This document shows, piece after piece, positions 3,091 through 4,365 of a stretch of 50,423 nucleotides of DNA; the first letter of the stretch is position 1, and every line of letters starts with the position of its first letter. Source of the DNA: Anaerolineae bacterium (GTDB lineage Bacteria > Chloroflexota > Anaerolineae > 4572-78 > J111); assembly GCA_016931895.1 (NCBI GenBank), contig JAFGDY010000091.1:1-50423 (forward strand). The letters are read 5' to 3'. The notes beneath the pieces are model-generated. The model was not told the DNA's origin. It searched no databases and saw only the letters and a list, made by a program, of their open reading frames with translations. The translations under genes and the position numbers were made by a program.

Positions 3091-3750
3091 TCATGCGGAT
3101 CCCACTTTTTCGCTGCTGATGACTCCCTGCATGGCGGCCAAAACCTCTTCCGTTGTCCAGCGCCGCTCGCCATCAAGCACAACGGTTTTGGGGTTGTCAA
3201 GTAACCATTCATCGTGGAGCCGTTCAAGCTGGGCCAGGTATTCCAGCGAAATGCCGCTCTCTTCCTCACGACCCCTGGCCTGAATGCGCTGCAAGCAAAC
3301 CTCGGCGGGGGTGCGCAGGTAAATGATGAGATTGGGTTCGACCGAAGCCAGCGACACCATAAAGGCCCACATATCGCAATAAAGTTGGTATTCGGCCAGG
3401 GAAAACAGGCCGGTGCGATAGCCGTTTTCCGCAAAAACAAAACGGTCGCAAAAAATGGAGCGTTCCAAAATGATCCGGTGATGATTGTTCAACAACGATA
3501 CCTCGCGCCACGTTTTGGCCCGGGTGAGCAGGGCGCACATCTGAAAGGTGAAGCCCCACCGCTTGGAGTCGCGATAGAACAGGTCTAACATATTAGAGGC
3601 AAACCCTTCTCGCCACATCGCGGTTGGCTCTTCAGAGAAATCAAACGCCCCAGAAACGCTAATGGTGCGGCCCAAGGTGGTTTTGCCGGCGCCAATATTG
3701 CCTTCGAGGAAAATCATCAATCTGTTGTTGGTTGTTAGGGGAGAAGTCAC
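3091..3750 (-). CDS. deoxynucleoside kinase (dNK/dCK family)
   Basis: From the chosen start this is 219 residues, the normal length for the family. It has a P-loop (GNIGAGKTT, residues 17-25), the E-R-S/D-R catalytic block (LERSIFCDRFVFAENG) and an arginine-rich LID (RIQARGREEES). These enzymes phosphorylate deoxynucleosides at the 5' position in nucleotide salvage. I start at GTG 3750 because AAAGGA lies five bases upstream. The open frame extends to 3966, but the extra 72 residues are low-complexity Arg/Lys/Ser sequence and would overlap the SelW-like gene. An ATG at 3798 is a second possibility. It is probably co-transcribed with the SelW-like gene. Confidence 0.88.
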   Translation of the reverse strand: MTSPLTTNNRLMIFLEGNIGAGKTTLGRTISVSGAFDFSEEPTAMWREGFASNMLDLFYRDSKRWGFTFQMCALLTRAKTWREVSLLNNHHRIILERSIFCDRFVFAENGYRTGLFSLAEYQLYCDMWAFMVSLASVEPNLIIYLRTPAEVCLQRIQARGREEESGISLEYLAQLERLHDEWLLDNPKTVVLDGERRWTTEEVLAAMQGVISSEKVGSA

Positions 3751-3856: not shown

Positions 3857-4186
3857 CTACGCCGGCGGCGACCACCTACAGAAAGGGGCGTCGCCTTTGA
3901 ACGTTGTTGTATCTTGGGCCAAGCTTGGCCAGGACAGAGGAGGCTGGTACCGGCTGATCTCGGCAAGAACTTCTTCCTCTACCAGCGGATGGGTGCAGGC
4001 CTGGTTGGTATACACCAGCTTGTCGTTGACAGCAATTTCGTAGATGCCGTTGTGTCCGGCAATGAGTTCGGCCTGAAGGCCAAACCTGTGCTGAATTTCA
4101 GCCGCCAAACTGGCGGCCATCGGCCAGAAACCTCACTCCTGGCAGTAGGTAATTTGGATGGTGACGGGTTGGGGGGGATGGGTCAT
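3857..4186 (-). CDS. Rdx-family (SelT/SelW/SelH) selenoprotein with in-frame UGA at the CxxU site
   Basis: Reading through a TGA at 4135-4133 gives a 109-residue protein of the thioredoxin-fold Rdx family. The N-terminal strand ends in ITYC-Q-E-[UGA], so the codon sits exactly where the family has its second redox residue (CxxC or CxxU; C15 and U18). It is followed by the family helix (MAASLAAEIQHRFG), the strand and turn with GHNGIYEIAVNDKLVY, and a C-terminal helix (PLVEEEVLAEI). The ATG at 4186 has a GGGAG ribosome site nine bases upstream. A hairpin suitable as a bacterial SECIS follows the UGA. Treating the TGA as a stop leaves only a headless 87-residue frame from 4120. Role: thiol or selenol redox chemistry, exact partner unknown. 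No selA/selB/selD in the window, so decoding is inferred. Confidence 0.8.
4101..4117 (-). promoter_or_regulatory. Candidate bacterial SECIS hairpin
   Basis: On the mRNA (minus strand) a perfect 7-base stem GCCGCCA (4117-4111) and TGGCGGC (4107-4101) encloses a GUU loop. Two further wobble pairs extend it. The loop begins 22 nucleotides after the UGA, and its first base is G. As I recall it, the bacterial SECIS consensus asks for a loop 16-37 nucleotides downstream with a G among the first two loop bases, so both conditions are met. Confidence 0.65.
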
Positions 4187-4365
4187 CAGCCGGGTCTCCC
4201 TGAAAAATGTGAATGGTGAATTGTGAATGATTAATGGTGAAAGCTTACGCTCCGCTATTCACTGAAACGCTATCACACCGGGGCAAATAGTTTTTATGAC
4301 CGGTGGCGCATTTTTGGCTGTGACAACTGTTTTGTCCAGAACCGATAGCTTTTTCATTGCGGCCC

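Follow-up and report, generated by a model that had tools for sequence, protein, structure and literature searches.

The minus strand of the stretch of DNA analysed here (the window, 50,423 nucleotides) almost certainly carries a functional gene of the Rdx family that encodes a small SelW-like selenoprotein with a thioredoxin fold and whose UGA at codon 18 is read as selenocysteine (Sec). The gene has the marks of genuine recoding; standard annotation shortens it, and reading the sequence alone is enough to recognise it. A first, sequence-only reading had proposed an Rdx selenoprotein with UGA at the CxxU site, a proposal that homology, the sel genes of the genome, a conserved TGA column and covariation in the SECIS hairpin now support at the level of sequence. 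The DNA comes from a draft genome (G000; 6.06 Mb, 320 contigs, 97.4% complete, 4.7% estimated contamination), of which the window is contig C91.

Read directly on the minus strand, the gene opens with an ATG at 4186-4184, closes with a TAG at 3859-3857 and contains a single in-frame TGA, at 4135-4133. Its parts and its downstream neighbour are as follows.

3857 to 4186, minus strand: coding sequence of the SelW-like Rdx selenoprotein, 109 amino acids from ATG to TAG with the TGA read through, Sec being residue 18.
4133 to 4135, minus strand: inferred Sec codon, the in-frame TGA, U of the CxxU motif (C15-Q-E-U18), from direct reading and a column conserved in homologues.
4196 to 4201, minus strand: plausible ribosome binding site, AGGGAG, 9 nt 5' of the ATG, from direct reading.
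4099 to 4119, minus strand: bacterial SECIS hairpin, UGGCCGCCA-GUU-UGGCGGCUG, apical loop at 4110-4108 with G as its first base, from model fit, covariation and AGY-only Ser codons.
3857 to 3919, minus strand: C-terminal extension past the Rdx domain, with Cys103 and a low-confidence structure, from a three-way alignment and AlphaFold pLDDT.
3091 to 3717, minus strand: deoxynucleoside-kinase-like gene (MIFLEGNIGAGKTTLGR...), the downstream neighbour, from the ORF lists, its family called by eye from the P-loop motif.

Translation through the TGA gives MTHPPQPVTIQITYCQEUGFWPMAASLAAEIQHRFGLQAELIAGHNGIYEIAVNDKLVYTNQACTHPLVEEEVLAEISRYQPPLSWPSLAQDTTTFKGDAPFCRWSPPA. The coordinates of the sequence-only reading all proved correct on direct reading and translation, among them the start at 4186, which is an ATG with AGGGAG upstream. 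The site it gave for the TGA also stands, while its wording, the second residue of the redox motif, does not: the codon specifies the fourth residue of CxxU, which is the second redox residue. Conventional ORF calling yields only an 87-aa frame (3857-4120) that opens with an ATG at 4120, just the headless frame of 87 codons that standard gene finders had been expected to report.

The two translations differ in how well they fit the family. The read-through protein scores 42.8 bits against the Pfam Rdx model (PF10262), above the cut-off of 22.6, whereas the headless frame reaches 20.3 bits and falls below it, which bears out the earlier claim that family-like sequence flanks the TGA on both sides in one frame. 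C15 and residue 18 are invariant among 40 aligned proteins. The sequence is divergent nonetheless: it scores 33.6 bits against the NCBIfam model TIGR02174 (CXXU_selWTH), marginally below the cut-off of 34.2. The top-scoring curated model is another NCBIfam entry, NF041051 (SelTWH_Campy, SelT/SelW/SelH family (seleno)protein), and its score of 56 bits lies below the cut-off of 88, so the protein is not a member of that equivalog.

Comparison across homologues places the TGA in a conserved column. The read-out searched around each profile match for a CxxU pattern, which all TGA-bearing matches yielded. In 84 of 84 TGA-bearing homologues, drawn from many families, the TGA stands for residue four of CxxU. 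All 84 show the strand-1 pattern before the TGA and family sequence after it. Alignment with Rdx homologues, a check proposed at the outset, finds Cys or Sec at this position: 11 Cys homologues have CxxC at the column where the 84 Sec genes have TGA. Rdx was found in 9 of the 25 genomes of the order, with exactly one in-frame TGA in all matches but one, and in 179 of 396 sampled genomes of the class, where all but a handful of the matches listed carry one TGA. Rdx in this class is thus nearly always a selenoprotein, from which it follows that most such genes are probably misannotated, and many annotated Rdx proteins of the class are probably headless fragments. Cys-form Rdx is rare and scattered in the class (G013, G154, G171, G187, G261, G326, G349 and G388). 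One Cys-type group (CxEC or similar, ...VHSM..DGGFP), comprising G187:C8 (L061), L070, L073-L075 and L078, forms a single well-supported clade in the tree and probably either arose by conversion of Sec to Cys or is a paralogue in its own right.

These comparisons bear on the reading of the TGA as a nonsense mutation, or as a misread TGC or TGT, in a gene that would otherwise encode a normal CxxC Rdx protein. In its favour are the fragmented state of the draft genome and the existence of Rdx proteins with Cys (L026, L037 and L061 among them), yet such a pseudogene or sequencing error is very improbable. A second, independent genome from the genus carries an orthologue (L035) with TGA at the identical codon and a protein identity of 65-66%, and the same codon is TGA in every one of the TGA-bearing homologues inspected. 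Over the 61 codons around the TGA, the window gene and L035 share 31 unchanged codons and differ by 14 synonymous and 16 non-synonymous changes, with family residues conserved on both sides.

The RNA downstream of the TGA argues for Sec as well. The hairpin described by the sequence-only reading, of 7 bp with a G-first loop 22 nt downstream, is present: its GUU loop starts 22 nt past the UGA and its stem has 7 Watson-Crick pairs, or 9 pairs with the G-U pairs at the outer end, for a folding energy of −13.3 kcal/mol. The published bacterial SECIS model allows a loop of 3-9 nt, an upper stem of 4-16 bp, a G in the first two loop positions, a spacing of 16-37 nt and an energy of at most −7.5 kcal/mol (PMC13188914). 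With a loop of 3, a stem of 9, G first, a spacing of 22 and its energy of −13.3 kcal/mol, the window hairpin lies within every range, so that the suggested bacterial SECIS prediction comes out positive and is joined by covariation. A model-passing hairpin follows 5% of the TGAs in the window by chance, and an equally strong one follows 0.8% (12/1504); the hairpin by itself is therefore only suggestive, and the case is made by homology and comparative evidence. Synonymous recoding of the gene's own hairpin region still produces a model-passing hairpin in 10% of cases, which counts against the SECIS reading.

The comparative evidence is stronger. A strict form of the model, which demands a perfect hairpin, is passed by 32 of the 84 Sec genes against 3.6 expected from synonymous recoding, and by none of the 11 Cys homologues. 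Of the 84 Sec genes, 58 share the register with spacing 22 and loop 3, and in that register 81% of cells are paired, compared with 23-58% when it is slid. Two pairs covary in the homologue alignment, 21-33 (CG/TA/GC) and 23-31 (TA/CG/TG), and within the clade of the window gene (n=4) pairing reaches 97% of hairpin cells and 3 double changes occur. All 83 distinct sequences have G as the first loop base. Furthermore, Ser at the loop is encoded by AGY 48 times and by TCN never, as against 102 and 245 elsewhere in the same genes (p = 3e-23, with homologues that are not independent). This AGY-only usage is not attributable to the protein and is the clearest sign of selection on the RNA. Minimum-free-energy z-scores relative to synonymous recoding, which were also tried, fail to tell Sec genes from Cys genes (each group has a mean z of about −1); overall folding energy is thus a poor test, and the model-based hairpin, covariation and codon tests were used in its place.

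Hairpin conservation of this kind would serve no purpose if the UGA mainly terminated translation and the 87-aa frame were the product, with readthrough a minor event. Readthrough of UGA in bacteria is generally inefficient, and an ATG does open the frame at 4120. That frame, however, lacks strand 1 and CxxU and lies under the Rdx cut-off, and the first start downstream of the TGA in the same-genus orthologue is a TTG at a different codon. We regard termination as extremely improbable and decoding of the UGA as Sec as the far better account.

The genes that a selenoprotein gene calls for are all present in the genome. The search for them that accompanied the original proposal as a check recovered selA (584 bits), selB (331 bits including its C-terminal part, 289 over the main stretch alone), selD (357 bits) and selC, a tRNA-Sec with anticodon TCA that Rfam (67.2 bits against a gathering threshold of 47) and ARAGORN each detect; the absence of selB and tRNA-Sec, named beforehand as a refuting outcome, did not occur. 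These genes sit on contigs other than C91, which counts against the case in a draft genome with this level of contamination. The second genome of the genus holds the same Rdx genes and selA. Across the class (n=396), selA occurs in 165 of 179 genomes with Rdx and in 153 of 217 without it (Fisher p = 3e-8, indicative only, since genomes are counted as independent). Several of the 14 Rdx genomes that lack a selA match are incomplete, and one (G326) has Cys forms only. The SelD of the genome has an in-frame TGA of its own at KCAGU (KCAGUASKMAPEA), in the active-site loop (G000:C62:963-1904; L022:936-2009), and a second Rdx gene, with TGA at CRVU, lies on contig C288 (G000:C288:5671-5895; L001:1498-1737).

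A reassigned code in which TGA means Trp or Gly would also place a TGA in frame, but its chance is negligible: TGA acts as a normal stop in the window, where 10 of 34 long ORFs end with it, it stands within the gene only at the redox position that homologues fill with Cys, and the tRNA-Sec with its TCA anticodon explains the decoding. Homology, covariation, the invariant loop G and the exclusive AGY codons together make a pseudogene, a sequencing error, a reassigned code or chance very unlikely.

In an AlphaFold model of the Cys form (pLDDT 81.9), a strand and a helix are followed by three strands and a second helix, and the motif comes directly behind strand 1; CxxC/CxxU is predicted to lie between strand 1 (residues 10-15) and helix 1 (residues 21-35) of a thioredoxin-like fold. 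Confidence falls over the last 20 residues (mean pLDDT 50-53). Structural alignment of the model with SelW-family structures gives Z of 9-13, the crystal structures of bacterial SelW-related proteins reaching 12.4-12.8. MIEN1 is the best PDB match by sequence. Mouse SelW (2npb) and human MIEN1 (2ljk) share the fold (Z 9.2 and 9.1) and differ in having 20-27% identity and, according to passages of PMC1088965, in the location of eukaryotic SECIS elements in the 3' UTR.

The gene anatomy, homology, SECIS conservation, Sec pathway and predicted fold point to a mechanism of Sec incorporation and redox chemistry that would run as follows. During translation, the UGA at residue 18 would be decoded as Sec by SelB carrying Sec-tRNA(Sec), held by the SECIS hairpin that begins 13 nt past the UGA; the Sec itself would come from SelA and SelD. 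Cys15 and Sec18, in the loop that joins strand 1 to helix 1, would then act as the CxxU redox pair, whose reactive selenol would most likely reduce disulfides or glutathionylated or peroxide-oxidised partners. By family, the protein is most likely a thiol/selenol oxidoreductase.

Bacterial SelW-like proteins of this type are well documented. Passages of the relevant papers describe SelW-like CxxU proteins as bacterial selenoproteins for which organisms that use Sec have few Cys homologues or none (PMC1794560), as the most abundant selenoprotein family of the Sargasso Sea set with 48 genes (PMC1088965), as the largest family with 427 sequences (PMC2398784), and as entered under PF10262 (PMC9312934). 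The window protein resembles those described there in PF10262 membership, in a CxxU with Sec as the second redox residue and in a SECIS directly downstream, and differs in its clade, which is divergent and bears a C-terminal extension. The passages of these four papers that the comparison covers contain no SelW-like entry for such a genome. Annotations of Epsilonproteobacteria missed SelW genes wholly (PMC4607533). Because SelW-like CxxU selenoproteins have been known in bacteria since at least 2005-2006, the window gene is a new member of an established family: real, so far unannotated and otherwise ordinary.

Within that family the gene falls in a divergent clade. It groups in the tree with L035, L036 (SAR324) and L067 (another genome of the phylum) with support of 98/95, apart from 41 other rows that include the genome's own Rdx on C288, in a tree of only 72 columns whose deep branching is accordingly weak. 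When an alignment of this clade was run against the 396 class genomes, only the two genomes of the genus scored about 190 bits and the others at most 54. These results put the gene in a second clade of Rdx, separate from the Rdx that is common in the class, and the patchy distribution of the clade suggests horizontal spread or loss. Scans of viral contigs with the clade alignment found no relative, and a search of plasmids found no match. The C288 protein shares family, TGA column and genome with the window gene; it differs in its class-wide clade, in a hairpin with spacing 17 and a 5-nt loop, and in lacking the C-terminal extension. Relatives from the same family share its hairpin register. 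With two Rdx selenoproteins, this genome lends itself to the question of why SelW-like proteins are duplicated. The C-terminal extension of the clade carries an aligned Cys, Cys103 in a three-way alignment, and one speculative picture, which we think unlikely as a whole, is of a separate, patchy SelW-like clade (CxEU, Cys-bearing C-terminal extension), probably spread horizontally, beside a vertically inherited Rdx selenoprotein, with Cys103 in the tail perhaps a resolving thiol and the clade perhaps having a partner or function of its own.

The deoxynucleoside-kinase-like neighbour follows the Rdx gene in both genomes of the genus. In L067 (439-3242), the relative of the window gene is flanked on one side by a membrane permease-like gene and on the other by two genes for small thioredoxin-like lipoproteins, a neighbourhood that suggests a redox or metal(loid) export cluster. 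Upstream of the window gene, positions 4202-4244 (minus strand) and 15 other sites in the genome carry an intergenic repeat of the type (A)ATTCACCATTCAC. The element ATTCACCATTCACA was considered as a common regulatory element upstream of both Rdx genes and rejected, as it also precedes unrelated genes and sites with no clear downstream gene; its 16 exact copies in the genome, against 0 for the reversed control, mark it as a dispersed repeat.
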